Shown here: piece after piece, positions 6,087-19,205 of the stretch
Position numbering within the stretch: the stretch's first letter is position 1
How the letters are laid out: every line of letters starts with the position of its first letter
NCBI RefSeq assembly: GCF_003130405.1
Contig: NZ_QEAS01000010.1
Coordinates: 122,449 to 155,031 of the forward strand
Origin: Pararcticibacter amylolyticus
GTDB lineage: Bacteria > Bacteroidota > Bacteroidia > Sphingobacteriales > Sphingobacteriaceae
Direction: 5' to 3'
Length of the DNA stretch: 32,583 nucleotides
The notes under the pieces: generated by a model
The model's database searches: none
What the model was told of the DNA's origin: nothing
The model's input: only the letters and a program-made list of their open reading frames with translations
Program-made: the position numbers and the translations under genes

Positions 6087-9000
6087 ATGTTCATGTTAAT
6101 GAAACAGATTGTTCGCAAAATTGCCGGCATCCAGGTAATCCTGATGCTTTCCTCCGTATTTGTCTTCGGGCAAGCCTACCAGATTCATACTAAACGAATA
6201 GACTCGCTGGCTGACGCTGGTCTGCCCAAATCGGCCTTAAAAGAAGTGGATAAACTTGAATTGCTTGCGAGAAAAGGAAACAGGCACTCCGATATCATAC
6301 GCACAGCTATTTACAGGATTAAATTGCTGCAATATATGGAGGAAAGCGCAATCGTTAACATTATAAAGGCATTAAGAGAAGATGTACAAAAGTCAGAATT
6401 TCCGGTTAGGCCTGTTCTCCAGTCCCTGCTGGCCGAGATGTACTGGAAATACTATACCGAAAACAAGTGGCAGTTTATGCAACGCTCCCGGCTTGAAAAA
6501 CCGGATCCCGATATTAACCGCTGGGATCTAAAAACCATTGTGAAAGAGTGCAGCCGTTTATACGCTCTTTCTCTTCGCGACACTACAACCTTGCAGAAAA
6601 CACCTGTATCTATAATAGAAAATGCTTTAACCGGAGACACCGCAACACGTCATTTGCGACCAACGTTATATGACCTGCTGGTCCACCGCGCGCTTAATTT
6701 CTACCTTAACGAAGAACCTGCATTACCTGAACCACGGCTTCCCTTCACGCTTAGAGACCGTCGTCTTTTCGATAATGCAGGCTTATTCGTAAGACTGAAC
6801 ATCCAGACCTCCGATACTACCTCCACTTATTTCAAAGGGATCAGGTACTTGCAGCAAGCCTCCCGGTTTCATTTAAATGAAGTCCATCGCGAAGTGCTGG
6901 CCGATATCGACCTCCGCCGGTTAAAATTTCTTTATAACAATTCTCCCTTACCAGACAAAGACTCGCTCTACCAAAATGCCTTGCTTCGAACAGCAAATGA
7001 TATCTCAGATAAGCCTTTAGGAACTGACGCTCTTGTTCTGGCAGGACAATATTACCAGGAAAAAGACAGCCTTAGAACAGCACACGATCTTTTTAAAAAA
7101 GCGTCCGCTTCATTTCCGGGAAGCCCAGGAGCAGAAAACGCATTAAAACTATTAGCGCAACTGGAAACCCCCGAAATTCAGGTGACAGCAGAGGAAACAA
7201 ACGTCCCCGGCAGGCCGTTTCCGGCACTGTTGGAATACCGGAATATAGATCAGGTAAAAATTCAGATCTATAAGCTGACATCAACTCAGTTTGACCGGTA
7301 TACTCGATCCTTCGGTACTGCATTCGGCATATATCAAAACGACACCAGATTCCATGTTGCCAGCTCAGCTGTTTTAGACGTCCTTTCTAAGTGTTCTAAA
7401 GTACAGGAATTCACGCTCAACCTCCCCGGCCAGGAGGATTACAGGATGCACTCTGCCGAATTCAAAGTAGACTCGCTAAAGCCCGGCATTTATGTTCTTC
7501 TTGCAGGAAGATCGGAAGTACAGGACACTTCGTTCACCCAGCTCTTAGATTTCCGCATCAGCCGCCTCGCTTTCGTAAACAGGAAAAATCCTGATTCCAG
7601 GGTTGAGATCCAGGTGACAGACAGGGAAAGCGGAGCTCCTCTCCCAGATGTCGGGGTATTGCTTTACCGGCACGATTATGAAAAGAAATCCAAGCCTTTA
7701 CCCTCAGGTTATATTCATAAAGGGATTACAGATAAAAATGGAAGATTAAAAACAAGCCAGCTTTCTGTTTCGTCTTTTGACCTCCAGCTAAACTTCGGAA
7801 CCGATACACTAACGGAAAAACAAGGGGGATGGCTAAGATCCAGAGAGGTCGATAAAAAGCTTAAAGAAAAAACAATCCTGTTCACTGACAGGCAAATATA
7901 CCGTCCGGGACAAACCATCCATTTCAAAGGCATTGAATTACGGAACCTGAACGACAAAACAGATATTATTCCCGAAAAAAAGACTACAGTAACGTTTAAA
8001 GACGGCAGCAACAAAGAAATCAGCTCGCTTCTTCTAACGTCGAACGAATACGGTTCGTTCAGCGGCGAATTCGTTGTTCCCCAACATATCCTGAATGGAG
8101 ATATAAGTATCCGTACTCCCGACGGAAGCATAACCGTTAAAGTAGAAGAATATAAGCGACCGTCTTTCAACATCGAATTTTTACCTGTAAAAGGCAGCTT
8201 CCGGCTGAACGACACAGTAATTATCCGGGGCAGAGTAAAAGCCTTTTCAGGATATGGCCTGTCCCAGGCACGGCTCGTGTATAGGATAACCCGCACGCTG
8301 GATTTTGATCATGATGCTGCGACAGCAATTTACGGATCGTCAGGACGATACATTTACAGCAACCCTTTAGAAATAGAGACAGACACAGTCTTTACCGATA
8401 ACCAGGGAAACTATTCCATCCCGTTTAAAGCCATAGCCGATGAAAAAATAAAGGGAGAGGCATTTTTCCGTTATCAAATCAGCGCAGATGTTACCGATGC
8501 TACAGGAGAAACACACTCAGCTACCGGAGATGTTATTGTCGGGTCTCGCAGCTATAGACTATCTGCTGCCTTTCCATCAATCCTATTTTCAGGAGACACC
8601 GCAAAACTGCATGTTGATCTGACTACTCCCAACGGCGAAAAACTAAAAGGAACTATTAACACAGAAATCTATTCATTACAACAGCCAACACACCTGTTAA
8701 AACAGAAACTCTGGAGCATTCCCGACCAGCAACTCATGGATAGGGAAGAATACAAGAGGCTGTTCCCGGAGTATCCGTGGAAAAATGAAGATAATCCGGC
8801 CCAATGGCTTCAAAAAGAGAAAGTGCTCCATACAGAGAGTCTGTCAGATACATCAGCAGCTACAGTAATTACGCTGCCTGGAATGACTGGAAAATCTTCA
8901 GGCACATATAAAATGATTGTGAAGGCAAGAACTACCACAGGAGACACAGCTTCCTCAATACTATACTTCAAGTACTTGAATAACCAATCGCCTCATACTA

Positions 9001-12000
9001 TCTATACAGATGCTATAATCCCTGTTATAACAGCGGCAGAGCCCGGACAAGAAGCCGAATTCCTTGTTGGCAACGCAAGTCACACTTTTATATTAATGGA
9101 AGTACTTGACAAAACAGAGATCATTTCTTCAAAATGGATAGATGTACAAACACAAGAGAAGATCAGAATTCCGTTTTTTAATGCTAAAAACCTGACGGTT
9201 CAATTTCTTTCTGTTTTCCAAAACAGGCTTTACACCAGCAGTCATCGCATCTTTGTGAAAAGCCCGGAGAAAGCTCTTAACATAAAACTACTTACCTTCA
9301 GAGAGCAGCTTGAAACCGGCCAGAAAGAACAATGGAAACTACAGATCACAAACTACAAAAATCAGGGAAAAGCAGCCGAACTATTAGCTGGCATGTACGA
9401 TGCTTCTCTCGACAATATTGCCTACCCGCAAAACTGGTCAATCCCATCAAGTGATTCTTTTTCTAACGCCTTCTCCTGGAACAGTTTCCGGTTCGTTAAC
9501 AATACCATTAGCAGTCCTCTATCCTTCACCTATAAGGACTATGCATTAAGCTTCAGAAATTACGAAAACATTGATCTGCTGGGCTATAGTTATTTTGGTG
9601 GGTATAATGAAGGATTTGAAGAATACAGGCAGTTTCTTCGCGACAGGGAAAAAATGAGAGAGCGAGACAAAAGGCTGGAAGAAGAATACGTTAAAAATGC
9701 GGCGTTTATTAAGCAGGGAAATATCATAAAAGGCCTGATACTGGACGCCAGCGATAACCATCCCCTGGCAGGTGTCTCCGTATCAATAAAAGACAGTAAG
9801 ATATCTACTGTAAGCAATTCCAAAGGAGAGTTTAAAATGAAAGTGCCGGTTGGGGGAATAATCGTCATTTCCAGCACCGGATATTTCAAACTTCAACGAA
9901 AATTAACATCACCCGGAAAACTGAAACTCCTTCTCAAGTCAAAAGATGAAACACAGAGAGAAGCAGTCATCACAGGACAAAGCAAACATAGAAAGTCAAC
10001 GATCACAGGAGCTATATCTACTTTCAGAATACGCGGAATGGGAATGACGCAACCCACAATAGTACAAGACAATACAGTTCACAATTTCGCATCACTTGAG
10101 ATTTCAGACCCGGGTGTTAAGTCAATTGAAGGCGATCCGAATGCTGAAATGCGGCTGGATGAACCGACTGTTCCTGCTTCAAAGGCAGGCCAGGTACCGG
10201 CAATAAAACTTCGTAAGAATTTCAATGAAACGGCCTTCTTTTATCCTCAACTTCGTACCGATGAAAAAGGAGAGGTTGCAATCGGATTTACCACACCTGA
10301 AGCGATGACCCGATGGAAGTTCAGAGCCCTGGCCCATACCCGCGAGTTTGCATATGGCTATATCGAACAAGACGTAATTACACAAAAGCAATTAATGGTA
10401 GGTGCTAACATGCCACGGTTTTTCAGGGAAGGAGATACGATCAGCATTTCTGCAAGAGTCGCCAACCTCACCAGCCACAACGTAACAGCAAACATAGGTC
10501 TGAGCCTTTTTAATGCTGTAACCATGCGACCTATATCACTGCTTGCCGATCCCGGACAAGAAAAACAATCCCTTATTGTAAAGGCACGTACCAACGAAGC
10601 GGTATCTTTTAAGTTAGCTATTCCATCAGATCTTGAAGCGCTAACTTACCGGCTCACAGCGTCAACAGAAAGCCATTCAGACGGAGAAGAAAACACCGTA
10701 CCCGTGTTGTCTGACCGGATGCTGGTAAACGAATCACTACCTATGATGGTTCGTCCAGGTCAGACGTCCGTCTTCAGACTCGATAAATTACTCAACAACA
10801 ACAGCTCCACCTTAGTCAGCAAATCGATTACACTTGAATATACCGAAAATCCGGTTTGGTATGCGGTACAGGCAATGCCCTATCTGATAGAATTTCCCTA
10901 TGATTGCTCAGAGCAGACATTCAGCAGGTACTTTGCCAACAGTCTCTCTGCTTCAATCATTCAATCTTTACCTGCAATAGCCCAAACTTTCAAACAATGG
11001 AAAGCATCTGGCAGTAAGGCTTTACAGTCCAATCTTGAGAAAAACCCCGAACTAAAAAACCTTCTGCTCGAAGAAAGTCCCTGGCTGCGGAATGCAGCGA
11101 GCGAGAGTGAACAGAAAAAGCGCATAGCACTCCTTTTTGACCTTAATAAATTAAGTCACGAGCAAATACAAACGATTGATAAGCTATCCAAAATGCAGCT
11201 TGCAGACGGAGGCTTTCCCTGGTTCAGCGGCAGCAGATCCGACCGTTATATCAGTCAGCATATATTGGCTGGTATTGGTCAGCTTTATCAGCTTAAAGCT
11301 GCTACAGGAAATGATGTCAAACTTAAGAACATTAAACGAAAATTGCTGGCATACCTGGATACCAGAATCGAAGAAAGTCAGCTGCAAACTACAAGAAATA
11401 ATAAGAATAGCAATTCTGACCCACTTTCTTCTATTGAGATCCATGCATGGTACACCCGCAGCTTTTTCAATGATGTGGCACTAAACAATAAACTCCGTGG
11501 GATCAGCAAACTCTATCTCGCTAAAGCTGAGAAGGATTGGACATCGGAGGACATTTATGAACAGGCAATGATCGCCCTTACAATGCTCCATTACGACAGG
11601 CCTCAGGTCGCACAAAAAATTATCCGCTCCCTAAAGGAAAGAGCACAGCATTCACAGGAGATGGGAATGTACTGGACTCAGAACCGGTCCGGCCGGTTTT
11701 GGAGCCAATCAACAGTCGAAACCCAATCCCTGTTAATCTCCCTCTTTACTGAAGCAGGAGGTCACGAAAAAGCTGTCCAGGAAATGAAGATATGGCTTTT
11801 GAGAAATAAACAAACAAATAACTGGCAAACCACGAAGGCCACAGCAGCTGCCTGCCATGCTCTGTTGTTACAGGGAGACACAATTCTCAGCAGAACCAGC
11901 GGTACTACCATCAGAATAAATAATGAATCTCTTGCCAACCTGAAGCCAGATATTCAGAGAGAAAGCGGATCTGGCTATATTAAGACTAACTGGACTGGCA

Positions 12001-12542
12001 GTGAAATTAAACCGGAGATTGGAAACATTAAGGTGACGAACAATGGGAATGTCGTCAGTTGGGGGGCGCTCCACTGGCAGTATACAGAGAAGATGAATAA
12101 GATCACCCCTTCTTCTTCCAGCATGAGCATTGAACGAAAGTATTTCGTTGTCAAAAAAGAGAAGACGGGAGAAGTGCTCAGTCCAGTCGATGCCTTGCAC
12201 ACACCTAAAACCGGAGACCTGCTAAGGGTAGTTATCTATCTGAAGGCGGATCAGGATTATGAATATATCCATTTAAAGGATATGCGCCCCTCGGGGACGG
12301 ACCCTGTTGATGTTCTTTCCTCATTTAAATACCAGGATGGACTTCCGTATTATCAGGTTACCAGGGATGTCGCAACCAACTTCTTCATCGATCACCTGAA
12401 CAAAGGATCCTACGTGTTCGAATACTCGCTCAGAGTTGCTCAGCCAGGCAATTATTCAACCGGAATCTGCTCTATTCAGTGTATGTATGCTCCAGAATTT
12501 AATGCACACAGCGAAGGGAGGAGGATGATAACAGAGAGGTAA
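6087..12542 (+). CDS. Large secreted alpha-2-macroglobulin family protein with carboxypeptidase-regulatory/SusC-like insert
   Basis: A 2151-residue protein with an N-terminal signal segment (hydrophobic to about residue 28, ending near FGQA). Three in-frame ATGs lie at 6087, 6093 and 6099; the last gives the most typical signal peptide. A TPR-like helical region covers about 300-355. Macroglobulin-type beta domains follow, for example RQIYRPGQTIHFKG near 600-615. A carboxypeptidase-regulatory-like domain lies at about 1211-1290, then a SusC-like stretch with ITGQSKHRKSTITGAIS. The A2M core (FFYPQLRTDEKG) is near 1380. A thioester motif Cys1607-Ser-Glu-Gln1610 heads an alpha-helical thioester domain to about 1900, and the C-terminus ends in YAPEFNAHSEG. 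Family members trap attacking proteases in the periplasm or at the cell surface. No penicillin-binding protein 1C gene, the frequent partner in Proteobacteria, lies nearby. Confidence 0.9.
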   Translation: MFMLMKQIVRKIAGIQVILMLSSVFVFGQAYQIHTKRIDSLADAGLPKSALKEVDKLELLARKGNRHSDIIRTAIYRIKLLQYMEESAIVNIIKALREDVQKSEFPVRPVLQSLLAEMYWKYYTENKWQFMQRSRLEKPDPDINRWDLKTIVKECSRLYALSLRDTTTLQKTPVSIIENALTGDTATRHLRPTLYDLLVHRALNFYLNEEPALPEPRLPFTLRDRRLFDNAGLFVRLNIQTSDTTSTYFKGIRYLQQASRFHLNEVHREVLADIDLRRLKFLYNNSPLPDKDSLYQNALLRTANDISDKPLGTDALVLAGQYYQEKDSLRTAHDLFKKASASFPGSPGAENALKLLAQLETPEIQVTAEETNVPGRPFPALLEYRNIDQVKIQIYKLTSTQFDRYTRSFGTAFGIYQNDTRFHVASSAVLDVLSKCSKVQEFTLNLPGQEDYRMHSAEFKVDSLKPGIYVLLAGRSEVQDTSFTQLLDFRISRLAFVNRKNPDSRVEIQVTDRESGAPLPDVGVLLYRHDYEKKSKPLPSGYIHKGITDKNGRLKTSQLSVSSFDLQLNFGTDTLTEKQGGWLRSREVDKKLKEKTILFTDRQIYRPGQTIHFKGIELRNLNDKTDIIPEKKTTVTFKDGSNKEISSLLLTSNEYGSFSGEFVVPQHILNGDISIRTPDGSITVKVEEYKRPSFNIEFLPVKGSFRLNDTVIIRGRVKAFSGYGLSQARLVYRITRTLDFDHDAATAIYGSSGRYIYSNPLEIETDTVFTDNQGNYSIPFKAIADEKIKGEAFFRYQISADVTDATGETHSATGDVIVGSRSYRLSAAFPSILFSGDTAKLHVDLTTPNGEKLKGTINTEIYSLQQPTHLLKQKLWSIPDQQLMDREEYKRLFPEYPWKNEDNPAQWLQKEKVLHTESLSDTSAATVITLPGMTGKSSGTYKMIVKARTTTGDTASSILYFKYLNNQSPHTIYTDAIIPVITAAEPGQEAEFLVGNASHTFILMEVLDKTEIISSKWIDVQTQEKIRIPFFNAKNLTVQFLSVFQNRLYTSSHRIFVKSPEKALNIKLLTFREQLETGQKEQWKLQITNYKNQGKAAELLAGMYDASLDNIAYPQNWSIPSSDSFSNAFSWNSFRFVNNTISSPLSFTYKDYALSFRNYENIDLLGYSYFGGYNEGFEEYRQFLRDREKMRERDKRLEEEYVKNAAFIKQGNIIKGLILDASDNHPLAGVSVSIKDSKISTVSNSKGEFKMKVPVGGIIVISSTGYFKLQRKLTSPGKLKLLLKSKDETQREAVITGQSKHRKSTITGAISTFRIRGMGMTQPTIVQDNTVHNFASLEISDPGVKSIEGDPNAEMRLDEPTVPASKAGQVPAIKLRKNFNETAFFYPQLRTDEKGEVAIGFTTPEAMTRWKFRALAHTREFAYGYIEQDVITQKQLMVGANMPRFFREGDTISISARVANLTSHNVTANIGLSLFNAVTMRPISLLADPGQEKQSLIVKARTNEAVSFKLAIPSDLEALTYRLTASTESHSDGEENTVPVLSDRMLVNESLPMMVRPGQTSVFRLDKLLNNNSSTLVSKSITLEYTENPVWYAVQAMPYLIEFPYDCSEQTFSRYFANSLSASIIQSLPAIAQTFKQWKASGSKALQSNLEKNPELKNLLLEESPWLRNAASESEQKKRIALLFDLNKLSHEQIQTIDKLSKMQLADGGFPWFSGSRSDRYISQHILAGIGQLYQLKAATGNDVKLKNIKRKLLAYLDTRIEESQLQTTRNNKNSNSDPLSSIEIHAWYTRSFFNDVALNNKLRGISKLYLAKAEKDWTSEDIYEQAMIALTMLHYDRPQVAQKIIRSLKERAQHSQEMGMYWTQNRSGRFWSQSTVETQSLLISLFTEAGGHEKAVQEMKIWLLRNKQTNNWQTTKATAAACHALLLQGDTILSRTSGTTIRINNESLANLKPDIQRESGSGYIKTNWTGSEIKPEIGNIKVTNNGNVVSWGALHWQYTEKMNKITPSSSSMSIERKYFVVKKEKTGEVLSPVDALHTPKTGDLLRVVIYLKADQDYEYIHLKDMRPSGTDPVDVLSSFKYQDGLPYYQVTRDVATNFFIDHLNKGSYVFEYSLRVAQPGNYSTGICSIQCMYAPEFNAHSEGRRMITER

Positions 12543-12590: not shown

Positions 12591-15500
12591 TCATACCACC
12601 AGCCTTTCTTTATCCTTTTTCTCCAGCCTCCTGTATCTTAGTATTACGATGGCCGATATTGCCAGTAATACAGCAACCACCCAGTATACCCATACCGGTA
12701 CAGGTACCGGGTCTCCGGCGGCGTAAGAATGTAACCCAGACAAATAATAATTTACGCCGAATGAAGTCATGATGATAGAAGAAAATGCCCAGAGAGAGGC
12801 AAGATTATAAACCAGCGCATTTTTTAAAACCGGAATGAGGCGCAGGTGGAGCACGAACGCATATACGACTACCGAAATAAGGGCCCAGGTTTCCTTAGGA
12901 TCCCATGCCCAGTAACGCCCCCAGCTCTCGTTAGCCCAAACGCCGCCAAGGAAAGTACCAATTGCAAGAAGAAACAAGCCGATAGTGATGGCCATCTCGT
13001 TTACAATACTCAATTCCTGGATGCTGAGCCACCATTTTGTGCCTGGTGCAATGGGTTTAAAGATCAGCAGCAATATAGTCAGAAGAGCGATGATCGCTGC
13101 CAGCGCGAGAGGCGCATAGGAACTGACTATAATCGCTACATGGATCTTTAGCCAGTACGAATGCAGCACCGGCATAAGGTTGGTAATTTCGGGATTAAGC
13201 CAGTCCAGAAAACCAACAAACAGCAGAGTCCCCGAAAACAGCAGTCCCAGTGGTATCGTAAACCTTGATTTACCGGAAAAAAGAAGACCAAATAAAAGGA
13301 TTCCCCAGGCAACGAAAACCAGCATTTCAAAACCATCAGACCAGGGTGGATGCTTAGCGATATACCATCTTAGCCCAAGGTGGAAAGTGAACACCAGAAG
13401 CCCCAGCCAGCTCAGGACTTTTCCAGTGATCCAGGCTCTTTCAAGATGCTTAGATTCTTTGAATAATAACGTGATCGCCAGCACCAGCTGAATGGCGCCA
13501 AGAAGCCAGAAAATTCCGAACAGCCGGTTTCCCAGGTTCAGTTTATTATACAAAATCTCTCCCTTGATCAGACTTTCTGAAGGATACACTTTACTGCCTG
13601 CTTTTTTCTGGAATAAATGGATATAGTCAAGCGTTTCATCAGCCTGCTTCCAGTCACCTGTTTCCATTCCCTTCTGCAACCCTGCCAGATACAGAGAAGT
13701 GATATTTTCAACAAAGCGCGCATCATCTTCGGCGAAGCCCTTCTGAGATTCCTGACTGGTAAACCATGTATTGTTTTTATCCTGCTTATTGGGAAAGATC
13801 CGGAGAAAATCGCCGGTTAATAATGCATAAAAAATATTAAAGCGTTCGTCTGTTTTCAGCAGTTCCTTATGCCCCTCATTTCGTTCTGCAGGCTTCAGTT
13901 TATTGGCTTCTTCAACGAGATCATGCAGAAGATAATCACCGTCTTTATTCACAAAGTCGCGAAAACTGAGTCTTTCAGAAGGTTTTTTCTGCAAGGCGAG
14001 AAAGGCGAGATGAGATTTTTCCTTATCAATCCTGATGACAGGTAAACGGCTGAATAACACCGGGTCTATCTGTACAGCCAGAAGAAACTGTTCGGAAGAT
14101 AGCCTTACGTTACCTGAATCTGCCGGCAGCTCAACATAAGATCGTCCGCTGATCTTGCGAATAATTTCATTTGCGAGTGTATTAAGCGGCTTCATACGGC
14201 CATCCAGGTCCTGTACAATCAATTTACCATACTCCGCAGCCTTTTCCCGGGGAACTACCGGAATCTTAAGTGGTGCCTGAGCCATGACAGAACCCAGTAA
14301 GCTAAAGAAAACAATAAAGGCAAGAGCTGCCTTCCGGCGCACGGAACTAAGTTTTTTATTCAGCAGACTGAACCTGCTTCCTTTAGCGAAGAATGTGAAT
14401 ATCATTCCCACCGCCAGTAAGGTATAACCGAGGTACGTCAGGTACGTTCCGGGCCTGTCTCTGTTTATCGATAATACTGTGCCCTTTTCATCCGTATCAT
14501 ACGATGACTGATAAAAGCGGAAGCCCCTGTAATCCAAAACATTGTTCATGAACACACGATACGGGAATACGGTAGCCCCGTCCATCACTTTCAGTTCACT
14601 GGCGTAGCTCTCGGGACTTTGGCTTCCCGGATAGCGCACCAGCTGAAAATCATCCAGAAAAAGTGAAAAAGGCAGGGTTTCAGCCCTCGGCCCGTACGTA
14701 ACCGCAAATTCTTTTCCGTTGTAGGTAAAGGGATGCCAGGCCGGCTTCATAGTTACCATCCTAATATAAGCCTCTGAAACAGCACTCCCCTGATCGTCAG
14801 CGATCTTTAACTTCACCACATCGGGCAGATTTTTTGCCAGCTTCTCATCCTTTTCCGGCCGGTACTTTAACCCGGACTTTTCGTGAACTGCTTTCACGAG
14901 AAATGCACCTCCCTCCCATTGATAGAGAGACCGCAACTTCAGAGGCCTTAATTCACCGGCATGAAGCATATCGATTTTCTGCGACGCCATTTCCATGGAC
15001 TGCAGATGCACGGAACTGTTGATCATCCAGGTACTATCCTTTTTAAAAATCTTCACAGGTGCCTTTGTCTCCGCACTGGTTCCGAGCAAAAGATTGCCCA
15101 TTGATAATGATTGCCCCGCCTTTATCAGATGATCTTCCCGTCCCTCTCCAAGAGCCACTGCCAGATCAAGATACGTATCTTTTCCAGTGGTAATTTCCTC
15201 TCTCGCCCCCTTTACATATTCTTCGAATGTCACGCTGAACGAGTTGCTTTCCCATTCTGCATGATATGTTTCGGATTTAAAATTATGATGGATAAGCGTG
15301 ACCGGTATATCAAAACGCTTAGCCTGCGCCCCGTGCTGCCTGAACTGCAGGTAACGGCTATTGGTATAAAACACGTTTTCTTTTTCTCCCTCACGTATAT
15401 GGATCACTCCCTCTTCGCTGAGGTAGCGGGTCACGCCTGCACCCAGGATTATCATGACGAAGGCGACATGAAACAGGCCTACCGGCCACCGGTTTGCGTG

Positions 15501-15710
15501 GAACAACTTATACTGCCTGATATGTGCCAGGAAATTCACCGAAAGCCAGAGCATGATCAGCTCAAACCACCATGCCTCATACACCAGTGCCCTCGCTACA
15601 GCTGTACCATGATCATTTTCAATGAAAGTTGCTACCGCGCATGAGACAGCAAAAGCAATAAGTAAAACAAGAGAAATACGGGTAGAAAAAATAAATTTTG
15701 AATAAGACAT
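12591..15710 (-). CDS. ccsBA: CcsBA-type cytochrome c heme lyase (ResB-CcsA fusion), NrfI-like
   Basis: A polytopic membrane protein of about 1039 residues that exports heme and attaches it to apocytochromes c on the periplasmic side (system II). The N-terminal third is ResB/Ccs1-like, with several helices. A large extracytoplasmic region follows. The C-terminal third is CcsA-like, with many helices and the tryptophan-rich heme-handling motif WGRYWAWDPKETW at about 930-942. I chose ATG at 15708-15710 (MSYSKFIFSTR) rather than 15731: the longer start would run 17 bases into the preceding porin gene and adds seven unusual residues. It is the last gene of the nrfH-nrfA-porin-ccsBA set. In Wolinella the equivalent NrfI is dedicated to the CXXCK heme of NrfA; a similar task here is an inference. 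Confidence 0.9.
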   Translation of the reverse strand: MSYSKFIFSTRISLVLLIAFAVSCAVATFIENDHGTAVARALVYEAWWFELIMLWLSVNFLAHIRQYKLFHANRWPVGLFHVAFVMIILGAGVTRYLSEEGVIHIREGEKENVFYTNSRYLQFRQHGAQAKRFDIPVTLIHHNFKSETYHAEWESNSFSVTFEEYVKGAREEITTGKDTYLDLAVALGEGREDHLIKAGQSLSMGNLLLGTSAETKAPVKIFKKDSTWMINSSVHLQSMEMASQKIDMLHAGELRPLKLRSLYQWEGGAFLVKAVHEKSGLKYRPEKDEKLAKNLPDVVKLKIADDQGSAVSEAYIRMVTMKPAWHPFTYNGKEFAVTYGPRAETLPFSLFLDDFQLVRYPGSQSPESYASELKVMDGATVFPYRVFMNNVLDYRGFRFYQSSYDTDEKGTVLSINRDRPGTYLTYLGYTLLAVGMIFTFFAKGSRFSLLNKKLSSVRRKAALAFIVFFSLLGSVMAQAPLKIPVVPREKAAEYGKLIVQDLDGRMKPLNTLANEIIRKISGRSYVELPADSGNVRLSSEQFLLAVQIDPVLFSRLPVIRIDKEKSHLAFLALQKKPSERLSFRDFVNKDGDYLLHDLVEEANKLKPAERNEGHKELLKTDERFNIFYALLTGDFLRIFPNKQDKNNTWFTSQESQKGFAEDDARFVENITSLYLAGLQKGMETGDWKQADETLDYIHLFQKKAGSKVYPSESLIKGEILYNKLNLGNRLFGIFWLLGAIQLVLAITLLFKESKHLERAWITGKVLSWLGLLVFTFHLGLRWYIAKHPPWSDGFEMLVFVAWGILLFGLLFSGKSRFTIPLGLLFSGTLLFVGFLDWLNPEITNLMPVLHSYWLKIHVAIIVSSYAPLALAAIIALLTILLLIFKPIAPGTKWWLSIQELSIVNEMAITIGLFLLAIGTFLGGVWANESWGRYWAWDPKETWALISVVVYAFVLHLRLIPVLKNALVYNLASLWAFSSIIMTSFGVNYYLSGLHSYAAGDPVPVPVWVYWVVAVLLAISAIVILRYRRLEKKDKERLVV

Positions 15711-15714
15711 GAAG

Positions 15715-17034
15715 CTAGAGTAAAACACCAATGAATTTATTCTTCATAGTGGGCCTGAAAATCAACATCACATAGGCCCAATTCTGCCCCTTCTTCAGTG
15801 TCCCATTATTTTGGATCGTTTCAAAAGTGTCTGAATGAAAAAATTGGCTGTATCCCCCTTGCAGGGAAATCGCCTGGTTAAAAATATACCCTGCACTAAG
15901 GTCAAGCTCTGTGCCCAGATGACGTTTCATCCGTTCGCCCGTTGAATTATACGCATTCGCCTGCGAGAAAAAGCCATGCCCATCCAGCTGCGTAAAGAAC
16001 CTCGAATTGAAATCAAGTCTCGCCTTAACGAAATAGTCCTGTAAACCTACACTGTTTTCGTGAGCACCGCCCACGTAAAACAAGTCCATATATCCATTAT
16101 GTGCATGATTCGTTCCATACAAAGGAGAGAACGAGCGGTTCACAGAAGCCGTATTATTGCCGGAAGTTCCGCTGAGTATCTCAGCTCCTCCTGCAATACG
16201 AAGCGTCCTGGAAACGGCACTGTCAATGTTCAATTGCTGTGTAATCAGGGCACTCGCGTCGTATGCCCTCATTTTACGCCCCTGCGGGTCCTTTCCCAGC
16301 TGATAATAATAAAAACCCGATAACAACGTGTTTCTGACCTTGTATTTCAAAGTTGGAAGTCCGATTGTCTGCCGGTAATAGGTATGCTTTTCAGCCACTG
16401 CACCGGAAGCATCGTTCCTGGTAAATTGTCTGCCATCGTTCCACAGCAGCAATGAATATTCAAACGGCCCGGCTGTATTACCTAACCGTGCGAACTGTGC
16501 TGCTTTGTACTGATTAGCCACAGTAAATACATTTCCGCTAAGCTTCTGACCGTCCTGGTTAAACCCTCCGCCTAACTGAAAGTTAAGTTTGTCTTTTTCA
16601 TATTTTACCTGGATAAAATCGTGGGAACGTCCCTGCAGTGCCCAGTCGAGGTTTCCCAGAAAGCGGGCGTTATCAAAGTTTAGTTCCTGGCGCCCAATCC
16701 TGATCTTCCAGTTGTTTCCCAAACCGGTTTCCAGCCATGCCTCATACAGCGATAAAAAGTCGTCACTGATTTTAGCCTGAGAGGTGCTTCCCCAGGTACG
16801 GATGTCCTGAACACTTGCATAAAAGGTAAAAGCATCCTGCTTATACCCCGCCTGCAACCTCAGCCGGTGTGCTACAAATGCAGCAGGGTCTGCATCTTTA
16901 CTGATCAGCTTTCCATAGCCATTCCTGAATTCTGCACGGGGTATGAACTGTCCATCGATATTAAACTGGGAATAAGCGGGGGAGATATAGCAAGCAAAGA
17001 CAAATACCCAGCCAGCGTATAAAGACTTCCTCAT
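15715..17034 (-). CDS. Outer-membrane beta-barrel, alginate-export/porin type
   Basis: A 439-residue protein with a signal peptide of about 22 residues (hydrophobic core then PAYSQF). The mature part consists of alternating amphipathic strands, including RLRLQAGYKQDAFTFYASVQ and the motif WKIRIGRQELNFDNARFLG near 115-135, typical of the alginate-export (AlgE-like) family. This points to a 16-18-strand outer-membrane channel. The gene lies 28 bases after nrfA and 4 bases before the ccsBA start, so it belongs to the nitrite-reduction operon. Its substrate is not visible. Because of the context, passage of nitrite, formate or another small anion is more plausible than alginate. The terminal residues (IGVLL) do not end in the aromatic residue preferred by many barrels. 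Confidence 0.8.
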   Translation of the reverse strand: MRKSLYAGWVFVFACYISPAYSQFNIDGQFIPRAEFRNGYGKLISKDADPAAFVAHRLRLQAGYKQDAFTFYASVQDIRTWGSTSQAKISDDFLSLYEAWLETGLGNNWKIRIGRQELNFDNARFLGNLDWALQGRSHDFIQVKYEKDKLNFQLGGGFNQDGQKLSGNVFTVANQYKAAQFARLGNTAGPFEYSLLLWNDGRQFTRNDASGAVAEKHTYYRQTIGLPTLKYKVRNTLLSGFYYYQLGKDPQGRKMRAYDASALITQQLNIDSAVSRTLRIAGGAEILSGTSGNNTASVNRSFSPLYGTNHAHNGYMDLFYVGGAHENSVGLQDYFVKARLDFNSRFFTQLDGHGFFSQANAYNSTGERMKRHLGTELDLSAGYIFNQAISLQGGYSQFFHSDTFETIQNNGTLKKGQNWAYVMLIFRPTMKNKFIGVLL

Positions 17035-17062
17035 ACGGTTTTCAGATTTTAAGATACCCGTG

Positions 17063-18550
17063 TTAATTAAGCATATTTACCTTCATTTTCGACTCACGGG
17101 CTTTACCTTCTTTCAACCACTGAGGTACCACCTTCTCAAGGAATTCTGCCTTTTCCATCTTCTCTTTCTCCAGGTTCACACCAATATAAGCCTGGAGCTC
17201 TGACTTACTGCTCAGATTTGGCATTTTTACCGGCTTATTATGCCCCAGGGATGCCAGCACCCTTGCCAGTTCTACCCTTACATCCTGGATAATTGTTAAT
17301 CCGGAAGCAAGTATGCGGCTCGACTCAAGAGGAGCATGAAACCCTGCGCCATGAGATGCTGCAATATAATCCCAGCGCCACTGGGCATGCCTGATACCCT
17401 TTAGGATATTCGTCATTTGTGCCTCCTTTGCCCCCAGTTTCCATGCCTGTTCTGCCTCCAGATGAGCCATTGCTACATGACGCTGAAGCTGGGAAATACT
17501 CTGTTTTACTTTGGTCTGGCGCTCGTACACATCGTTGACAAGGTCGGAAACCTTTTCCCGGTGACATACAAAGCACGAGTTCTCCACATTGGCAAGTGGC
17601 GAACCTATATGATGATCCGTAAATTTCTGTCCACCCTCCGTCCCGTAAGGCATGTGGCAATCTGCACATGATACTCCGCGTTTCGCATGGATGCCGAACG
17701 AATAGATCTCATAATCGGGGTGCTGAGCCTTCAGCATCTTTGCCTTACTGAGGGGATGAACCCAGTCGGCAAAATCAATCTTGTCATAGTATGCTTCCAT
17801 CGCCTCTACGCTCTGCCCATCCTTCCATGGGAAAGTAACATATTGTGCTTTTGGCGCTCCGGGTCTTTTTTTATCGAAGTAATATTCCACATGACACTGC
17901 GCACAAACCAGCGAGCGCATCTCCTGGTGAGAAGCCTTGTTTATATCCTTCCCCATTGCCTGAAAAGCCTCTACCAATGCCGGCCGGGTAATCGTAAGAT
18001 TCATAGTTTTGGGGTCATGGCAATCAGCACACCCGATCGGGTTAATAATCTGACTGCCGAAGTCTGAGAGCTTGTGACTGTAAAACTCCGTTACGCCAAG
18101 TTCTTTCATGAGCCTGGGAACATCCGGACTTTTACATGTCCAGCAGGTGCTGGGCATCACCCCTGCCCCCGGCTCTTTAGGAGCTCCTATGCGTACAGAC
18201 GCCAGTACATCACGGACGGCATGGTTATGCCCTCGGGGCTGATTATATCCCTTACTGAAAGCATACCCGGCCCATAGGATAATAGTTTCAGGGTTTTCTT
18301 CCAATGCATCCCTGAAACCGCTGGTATTGTATTTACTTTTAAAAGAGGTGTCCTGAGTCTTCTGGTATGATTGATATTGCCTGGGGTAGTTCATTCCCCA
18401 AAGGGTGTCCCGCGGTTCAATTCCTTCTATCTGTACTTTAGGATGATACGCAAATCTCGCTTCTGCTCTCCTGTCCATGATGGAATAGACCAGCATGGAC
18501 AAAAGGAACACAATAACTACTGTAGCAATAAAAAGGATCCAGTTCTTCAT
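17063..18550 (-). CDS. nrfA: Ammonia-forming cytochrome c nitrite reductase, catalytic subunit
   Basis: A 495-residue pentaheme enzyme that reduces nitrite to ammonium with six electrons in the periplasm. Heme sites in order are CWTCK at 136-140 (lysine-ligated active-site heme), CADCH 174-178, CAQCH 216-220, CADCH 295-299 and CFVCH 326-330. Catalytic residues inferred from spacing in known NrfA are Arg120, Tyr223 (in VEYY) and His277, with Gln276 and Glu222 at the calcium site. The N-terminus has one hydrophobic stretch (about 4-24) without a clear cleavage site, so it may stay membrane-anchored. nrfH ends 4 bases upstream, the standard gene pair. The length matches characterised NrfA proteins. 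All key residues are present, so it should be active. Confidence 0.97.
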   Translation of the reverse strand: MKNWILFIATVVIVFLLSMLVYSIMDRRAEARFAYHPKVQIEGIEPRDTLWGMNYPRQYQSYQKTQDTSFKSKYNTSGFRDALEENPETIILWAGYAFSKGYNQPRGHNHAVRDVLASVRIGAPKEPGAGVMPSTCWTCKSPDVPRLMKELGVTEFYSHKLSDFGSQIINPIGCADCHDPKTMNLTITRPALVEAFQAMGKDINKASHQEMRSLVCAQCHVEYYFDKKRPGAPKAQYVTFPWKDGQSVEAMEAYYDKIDFADWVHPLSKAKMLKAQHPDYEIYSFGIHAKRGVSCADCHMPYGTEGGQKFTDHHIGSPLANVENSCFVCHREKVSDLVNDVYERQTKVKQSISQLQRHVAMAHLEAEQAWKLGAKEAQMTNILKGIRHAQWRWDYIAASHGAGFHAPLESSRILASGLTIIQDVRVELARVLASLGHNKPVKMPNLSSKSELQAYIGVNLEKEKMEKAEFLEKVVPQWLKEGKARESKMKVNMLN

Positions 18551-18554
18551 GATA

Positions 18555-19205
18555 TTATTTCTTTTGGGCGTCTTTTTGTTTTTCTTCGTTCATTGATTCT
18601 TTCAGCCAATCAGGGACGACAGTCATTTCCGAGGTTCTGTATATTCTGATGGGTTCTATTTGTAAGCCGACTGAGGAAAGGCCTTTTACCTTTCCATGAG
18701 GCACATCACGGTGGCATTCCCAGCAGGTCCGGTCTGTTCTTTTTCCAAAGTGGTCATCTACAAACCCGGCCATTTTCGCGTCTGTTACCTGGTCCTGATG
18801 ACATCTGATACAATTATCCTGAATGACTTCCAGTGAAGCATGCTTCGCCTTGATCACCTGTGGTTCAGCACGAAGCGTAAAAATTGACGCGTGATACAAG
18901 CCATCTTTAGCCTTAAAATAATATTTGCTGAAAACATTGTTATGAGGCACGTGACAGTCATTACAATGGGCTACCTCCCGGTGTGAACTGTGGTTCCAGG
19001 TAATATACTGAGGATTCATCAGGTGGCAATTCACACAAGCCTGGGGATCGTCAGACAGGTAGGAAGCTGCATTACTTAAACGCAGTACATAAAAACCCAG
19101 ACCGATAAAAGCGCCAACAGCAACTATAGCGTATTTTCTCCACCGATGCGGCGGGATTAAGTTATGCTTAAATAGAAAGCGTTTAAGTTTCCTGAATTTA
19201 GCCAT
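18555..19205 (-). CDS. nrfH: Tetraheme quinol dehydrogenase NrfH (NapC/NirT family)
   Basis: A 216-residue membrane-anchored cytochrome c that oxidises menaquinol and passes electrons to NrfA. One transmembrane helix lies at about 25-41, preceded by a basic, cytoplasmic N-terminus. The four heme sites are CVNCH at 57-61, CNDCH 81-85, CIRCH 132-136 and CWECH 161-165. CVNCHLM gives the CXXCHXM pattern in which Met63 is the unusual ligand of heme 1 in NrfH. The C-terminal 45 residues extend past the minimal family length and end in a charged tail. It is the first gene of the nrf operon, followed after four bases by nrfA. The ATG at 19203-19205 is the natural start, as the basic segment and helix follow directly. 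Confidence 0.95.
   Translation of the reverse strand: MAKFRKLKRFLFKHNLIPPHRWRKYAIVAVGAFIGLGFYVLRLSNAASYLSDDPQACVNCHLMNPQYITWNHSSHREVAHCNDCHVPHNNVFSKYYFKAKDGLYHASIFTLRAEPQVIKAKHASLEVIQDNCIRCHQDQVTDAKMAGFVDDHFGKRTDRTCWECHRDVPHGKVKGLSSVGLQIEPIRIYRTSEMTVVPDWLKESMNEEKQKDAQKK

Follow-up and report, generated by a model that had tools for sequence, protein, structure and literature searches.

The window analysed here, the whole stretch of 32,583 nucleotides from Pararcticibacter amylolyticus, carries on its plus strand a gene for an alpha-2-macroglobulin (A2M), within which a SusC-type domain lies upstream of a bait region made of sequences that resemble other envelope proteins of the same genome. 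The features of this gene are as follows:

6087..12542, plus strand: alpha-2-macroglobulin gene, one open reading frame of 2151 aa
A2M N-terminus, plus strand: signal-peptide-like stretch, judged by eye
7872..8117 (aa 596-677), plus strand: MG2 domain, PF01835 (Pfam, E 1.4e-14)
9609..9701 (aa 1175-1205), plus strand: helix preceding the SusC-type domain (AlphaFold2)
9708..9935 (aa 1208-1283), plus strand: SusC-type N-terminal domain (CarbopepD_reg_2, NTE; hereafter "CTD"), from Pfam, the match to 5t3r_D and AlphaFold2
9951..10193 (aa 1289-1369), plus strand: bait region proper, predicted disordered (AlphaFold2), adjoining PF00207 at the bait position of YfhM
9957..10019 (aa 1291-1311), plus strand: SusC TonB-box/plug-start mimic REAVITGQSKHRKSTITGAIS (own-genome search, PDB match)
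10023..10043 (aa 1313-1319), plus strand: plug-like FRIRGMG, seen by eye, with similar IRG motifs in many relatives
10059..10100 (aa 1325-1338), plus strand: TonB-linker mimic 1, IVQDNTVHNFASLE (own TonB VVEDNSVHDFASIE), score 56, best of 2000 shuffles 35
10101..10166 (aa 1339-1360), plus strand: TonB-linker mimic 2, ISDPGVKSIEGDPNAEMRLDEP (own TonB VADPGQKTIAGDPNAEIRIDEP), score 90, best of 2000 shuffles 49
10230..10496 (aa 1382-1470), plus strand: A2M domain, PF00207 (Pfam, E 1.6e-18)
10899..10916 (aa 1605-1610), plus strand: thioester motif YDCSEQ (CxEQ), from the sequence motif
12123..12497 (aa 2013-2137), plus strand: bMG10 domain, PF17973 (Pfam, E 3.8e-31)

The MG2, PF00207 and bMG10 matches all exceed the curated Pfam cut-offs, and no match to A2M_BRD was reported by Pfam for the window protein. 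The CxEQ motif is present as YDCSEQ, from which formation of the thioester bond is predicted, and a C.EQ motif recurs in most of the relatives inspected. In a sequence search of all PDB chains, aa ~1392-1636 match the A2Ms of E. coli and Salmonella (YfhM: aa 1393-1629). A structural model of aa 1000-1640 was built with AlphaFold2 from an alignment of 25 sequences; it consists of MG-type strands C-terminal to the disordered stretch, and a Foldseek search with it returned A2M, complement and related structures among the 50 matches listed. The A2M gene is neighboured by genes for DNA polymerase III delta and a cytochrome c assembly protein, and no PBP1c gene was present among the neighbours scanned. 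A PBP1c gene adjoins the A2M gene in a number of bacteria, though it is not required. On the minus strand of the window, positions 12591-19205 encode a cytochrome c assembly/ResB fusion, an alginate-export-like protein, a cytochrome c552 and a NapC/NirT-type cytochrome, which together look like an ammonifying nitrite reductase cluster.

The preliminary description of this DNA had proposed that a SusC-type N-terminal domain sits inside the A2M, and this is confirmed by three lines of evidence. CarbopepD_reg_2 (PF13715) matches aa 1214-1287 above the curated cut-off (E 8.5e-12), AlphaFold2 gives aa 1208-1283 as a confident beta domain (10-residue mean pLDDT 77-92), and aa 1210-1316 match the SusC homolog 5t3r_D (E 7.3e-6; all PDB chains), with VVTGYTTQRKADLTGAVSVVK aligned to AVITGQSKHRKSTITGAISTFR of the window and SusC homologues together spanning about aa 1206-1318. 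An ordinary MG domain at aa ~1208-1283 was ruled out, Pfam and structure prediction giving the CTD in its place, and the likeness to SusC N-termini is found in profile searches. A search of the window's own genome with aa 1172-1371 yielded 139 matches at E <= 1, counting the A2M itself; the best non-self match has an E of 1.1e-15, and most matches sit in open frames of ~800-1250 aa, the size of SusC, by which they were assigned.

The domain is followed by REAVITGQSKHRKSTITGAIS and then by FRIRG, in that order. As Pfam reported no match to Plug (PF07715) in the window protein, the remaining plug is absent except for the IRG motif, and a folded plug was ruled out by the predicted disorder. Pfam, AlphaFold2 and Foldseek likewise gave no outer-membrane beta barrel in the window protein, which continues as A2M. 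That a plug-start signature follows the domain, with the rest of the plug and the barrel missing and the A2M resuming, therefore holds according to Pfam, the PDB search and AlphaFold2. The equivalent of the TonB box is degenerate in the window (REAVITG versus VDEVVV in Bt1763), and many relatives have an intact-looking TonB box, EVVVVGYG.

The segment following the CTD (aa 1289-1369) is disordered in the model, with block mean pLDDT of 26-36. The insert had been placed before the bait, which was not upheld: the part beyond the CTD is disordered, abuts PF00207 and thus occupies the bait position itself. The two TonB-linker mimics within it occur in reversed order relative to TonB, while aa 1289-1324 and 1361-1375 showed no excess over shuffles when compared with the own TonB linker (p 0.09 and 0.44). 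In an own-genome search the bait segment of the window matched SusC-like frames, one TonB (49% over 39 residues, E 1.2e-5) and a second A2M-like protein; no TonB domain was reported by Pfam in the window protein. Of the extent first given for the SusC-like insert, 9717-10090, the SusC likeness stands and the end does not, as the mimicry reaches ~10166 and the additional part is TonB-like.

Of 201 genomes drawn from Sphingobacteriaceae, the family that includes L107 (Pedobacter sp. SYSU D00535) and L108 (Mucilaginibacter sp. PPCGB 2223), 77 gave a match at E <= 1e-30. We surveyed 80 named loci, which are the best 80 of at least 585 and not a random sample, some of them from genomes that are also in the G set. 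Within these best 80 of at least 585 loci, pieces scoring above all shuffles were found for the CTD in 25/80 (20 shuffles), for plug-like sequence in 24/80 (60 shuffles), for the TonB linker in 18/80 and for the OmpA linker in 6/80 (40 shuffles each), lower scores being close to chance. The SusC reference set comprised 14 N-termini (27 fetched, 15 found by pattern, one wrong one removed).

Reading of the sequences shows that the relatives combine the pieces differently. The baits of L042, L043 and L044 hold a CTD and an apparently complete plug, those of some other relatives a CTD and an eroded plug, and those of L055, L056 and L058 a TonB box and plug without CTD. TonB-linker pieces occur in the baits of L009, L015, L016, L017 and L053, and OmpA-linker pieces in those of L027, L036, L050, L052 and L059. 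In L037 and L057 the order is shuffled, with IRG preceding the TonB-box motif. Whether some Bacteroidetes A2Ms retain a plug had been raised at the outset, and some relatives do keep one: of 6 relatives scanned, 4 pass the cut-off for Pfam Plug, L108 (profile 2-107 of 107) and L172 (5-107) over almost the whole profile and L134 and L150 over part of it; L164 falls slightly under the cut-off and L113 has no match. The L108 plug was modelled as disordered in its first half and with no more than moderate confidence in its second.

The window's genome encodes a second, divergent A2M-like protein (L041; G000:C80:55000-62500; 1942-aa frame, YLCNEQ motif), which carries at its bait position a CTD, a TonB box and a plug that looks complete from its sequence. 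In G003 (L045), which belongs to the window's genus, no CTD was seen in the sequence, where the alignment has a gap, nor did it receive the CTD label on the tree described below, and the CTD score of its contig was marginal (42 vs 41 for the best shuffle). A further bait cassette like YDPKTDTYIINGKPVKK recurs in L032, L035, L036 and L161 after a TonB-like piece. In the 4 genomes searched no donor for it was found, and a 64-aa frame interrupted by two stops (E 0.43) was all that it matched besides.

In order to compare baits with the TonB of their own genome, we took the best TonB of 24 genomes and of 12 more, 36 in all, with the bait defined as the 170 aa upstream of the A2M start and the ends of TonB and OmpA linkers defined by pattern, or by a fixed position for some TonBs. 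The added 12 derive from 22 genomes searched, 13 of which had a TonB match, one being dropped as a repeat of G019; in the remaining 9/22 no TonB was found at the cut-off, and these therefore lie outside the comparison. The own TonB linker scored above the 99th percentile of its own shuffles in 23/36 baits, and 13/36 gave no TonB signal over this threshold. Across the 36 genomes, the own-linker scores add up to 2502, compared with a mean of 1702 (sd 89) after permutation, and 0 of 20000 permutations were as high; the first 24 genomes gave 1714 vs 1197 (sd 68), again with 0/20000. When only one genome per genus was kept (11 genera), p was <= 0.001 in all 300 draws of 1000 permutations.

The signal is confined to the linker. 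Among the first 24 baits, the TonB linker scored >45 in 18, the TonB N-terminus in 0/24 and the C-terminal domain in 0/24. Bait segments exceeded all 100 shuffles against their own TonB linker in 22/36 cases, whereas other A2M segments did so in 0/36, 0/35 and 1/35 (105 of 106 controls gave nothing). The bait of the window scored 105 with its own TonB and 110 with the best other, its own being rank 5 of 36 because TonB linkers within its genus are nearly alike. Lineage-specific variants of the linker are followed as well: the G035 bait IKDPGVKTLEGDPNAEVRIDQPVG...VVEDNAVYEVANIE follows its TonB variant VKDPGQKTIEGDPNAEVRIDQPVG...VVEDNGVYEVANIE, and the same applies to VVSFAAVEK in G007 and INT.(V/L)GEGPIN in G117. 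A search of the whole genome with the 118-aa bait of L113, for which no target was preset, returned three matches at E <= 10, namely the A2M itself, TonB (E 1.6e-14, 71% over 45 aa) and OmpA (E 0.94).

A corresponding relation to OmpA was found in part of the genomes. The cassette YDELKDPTLRQEVEALK of the G093 bait is present in frames of 449-476 aa in 6/6 genomes and in the A2M in 5/6; these frames read as OmpA-family proteins, with the cassette between the barrel and the C-terminal domain. From 26 genomes searched, all 23 with an OmpA were used, and the 3/26 in which none was found are thus outside the comparison. The own OmpA linker exceeded the 99th percentile in 11/23 baits, one of which (G110) looks spurious, and the own sum was 1103 vs 1010 (sd 31), with 20 of 20000 permutations as high. 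Above all 100 shuffles stood the OmpA linker in 10/23 baits, the barrel in 0/23 and the C-terminal part in 0/23. The window bait scored 26 against its own OmpA linker, below the threshold of 39. A composition artefact was ruled out by the shuffle nulls and by control comparisons that used other segments of the A2M and the domains of TonB and OmpA.

The codons of the shared residues agree no better than codon usage predicts. The same codon was used at 207 of 475 identical residues for TonB (expected 205.4), at 70/164 for OmpA (71.3), at 313/988 between the window and 27 SusC N-termini (318.1) and at 644/1992 between L041 and SusC N-termini (633.2). The likeness is therefore held at the protein level, without a trace of recent DNA copying, and recent gene conversion at the DNA level from SusC, TonB or OmpA was ruled out by these tests. 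SusC paralogues compared among each other are also near expectation (13297/38373, expected 12739.6), so that an old capture of DNA followed by silent saturation may still underlie the pattern.

Baits can diverge while the remainder of the protein does not. In L134/L148, L114/L115 and the tandem copies of G126, the cores are 92-96% identical but the aligned bait residues only 21-23%; in the last case (L059, G126:C1:3440500-3455000) the tandem A2M genes have cores 96% and 80-residue baits 23% identical. Other close pairs have conserved baits, such as L019/L021 (96% identical) and L164/L167 (90%). The dN/dS of baits is ~0.1-0.4 in most of the listed pairs with alignable baits, with L124/L171 (1.08) as the exception, compared with ~0.04-0.1 for cores, and the bait is thus the less constrained part. 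L114 and L115 are A2Ms of Prevotellaceae MAGs with cores 94% identical, and only one of them has a CTD/TonB-box bait.

On a tree of 117 A2Ms, labelled where a piece reached z > 6 over 30 shuffles, the fewest label changes needed are 21 for plug-like, 12 for CTD, 10 for TonB and 7 for OmpA pieces. The tree was made without 11 loci named as duplicate or partial and without loci lacking the anchor pattern or having a short frame. None of the four labels was assigned to 54/117 A2Ms, the five Cloacimonadota/Ignavibacteriota rows among them, and mimicry is therefore unnecessary for function.

According to our analysis, the baits are built of short cassettes that resemble segments, exposed and for the most part flexible, of major proteins in the envelope of the same cell: from SusC the N-terminal domain, the TonB box and strands of the plug, from TonB the periplasmic linker and, in relatives, from OmpA the linker joining the barrel to the C-terminal domain. 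The cassettes are shuffled and repeatedly gained and lost, and the version of the own genome tends to be followed at the protein level. This pattern of self-mimicry is solid. What it is for is suggested by the biochemistry of known A2Ms, in which the trap is sprung and the thioester laid bare once the bait is cleaved (PMC4498604, PMC5764988) and, as described for the E. coli A2M, the bait sequence determines which protease is captured (PMC9918453). We posit that a protease which invades the periplasm, and whose targets there would be TonB, OmpA or SusC, attacks the look-alike bait in their place, upon which the trap would spring, the thioester would bond the protease and the protease would be caged. 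The bait would in this way be a decoy of those envelope proteins that need protection. A thioester-type bacterial A2M with a self-mimicking mosaic bait that acts as a decoy is the explanation we favour, with a probability of roughly 55%. Several observations sit uneasily with it: the CTD, being folded, is no evident target for a protease, the window bait matches some other TonBs better than its own and 13 of the 36 baits lack a TonB signal above the threshold, while some close pairs keep their bait and the bait is under weaker constraint than the core.

The nearest rival turns the argument round. The baits might imitate linkers that belong to long-lived proteins of the cell and are spared by its periplasmic proteases, so that the trap is not fired by the cell itself; the likeness would then mark what own proteases tolerate and not what invaders target. 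Genome-specific likeness at the protein level to flexible linkers fits this equally well, as does the fast bait turnover in several pairs, and the present data can be read either way. Folded CTD and plug pieces are not readily explained by it, however, and since 54 of the 117 A2Ms bear no label, a safe bait can evidently be had without mimicry. We regard this reading as unlikely, if still the one closest to our own.

Coupling of the protein to an outer-membrane partner, as put forward in the preliminary description, would make the pieces docking modules that bind TonB, SusC or OmpA partners, the TonB box being bound for instance by the C-terminal domain of TonB. The TonB-box/plug-start motif is kept in many relatives without a plug and in some without a CTD, and the TonB box of Bt1763 is reported to be functional (PMC7782687). 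This was not borne out for the window, whose TonB box is degenerate; its same-genus relative G003 shows no CTD, and the baits of other relatives hold look-alikes of the OmpA linker or of TonB's own linker instead. TonB's own linker is not known to be a ligand of TonB. Given that the pieces are shuffled in both content and order, and that some members have a degenerate TonB box or none at all, we consider docking quite improbable. The least probable of the readings is that of a tolerant spacer, a weakly constrained disordered stretch that gains coding fragments by recombination, with SusC genes as the commonest donors and the likeness decaying afterwards. More than 100 SusC-like places in the window's genome would supply such fragments, and the three pairs with near-identical cores have very different baits. 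Yet TonB and OmpA linkers are short and come from few genes and nevertheless recur in separate lineages, and the whole-genome search with the L113 bait matched only these two proteins besides the A2M. Residue identity moreover persists though codons are at chance level, and the bait dN/dS of ~0.1-0.4 in most alignable pairs (1.08 in L124/L171) also speaks against a mere spacer.

Extended to the phylum, the decoy reading would state that Bacteroidota A2Ms carry evolving mosaic baits that copy the exposed linkers of the cell's SusC, TonB and OmpA in their protein sequence, are re-tuned as these change and catch proteases that attack the envelope, a tentative proposal that we place a little short of even odds. 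If true, bait sequences would be a readable record of envelope sites under proteolytic attack and point to candidate cleavage sites, and this would be a case of self-mimicry as a bacterial defence. A bait that mimics and tracks own linkers would directly answer what the A2M guards, namely TonB, SusC and OmpA. The A2M family itself is known, and its variant with a self-mimicking bait seems to be new; in open-licence PubMed Central, no title or beginning of an abstract was found to describe an A2M bait with pieces of SusC, TonB or OmpA, the longest result sets being covered at the top only.

With Type I bacterial A2Ms (YfhM/ECAM, Salmonella A2M) the window protein shares the MG domains, PF00207, the CxEQ motif, bMG10 and a bait directly before PF00207, and by analogy it is predicted to trap proteases. 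It differs from them in the SusC-type domain upstream of the bait, in a bait that is built of self-mimics and in having no PBP1c among its scanned neighbouring genes. Its bait comprises ~80 disordered residues, compared with the 20 residues (Arg923-Leu942) that are described as lacking density in the cleaved structure of ECAM from E. coli (PMC4498604). The N-terminus of SusC-type transporters (Bt1763, 5t3r) has the same succession of NTE/CarbopepD_reg_2 and TonB-box/plug-start sequence; in the window, however, neither a Pfam plug nor a barrel follows, and in some relatives complete or partial plugs run into the A2M domain. The likeness to the own TonB and OmpA consists of bait segments of ~14-50 residues that match the linkers of the same genome, and extends neither to the N-terminus and C-terminal domain of TonB nor to the barrel and C-terminal part of OmpA. 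Comparable, too, are the engineered A2M baits described in PMC9918453, in which a swapped-in bait sequence sets the protease that is captured; those are man-made, whereas the bait described here is a natural mosaic of own-protein sequences.
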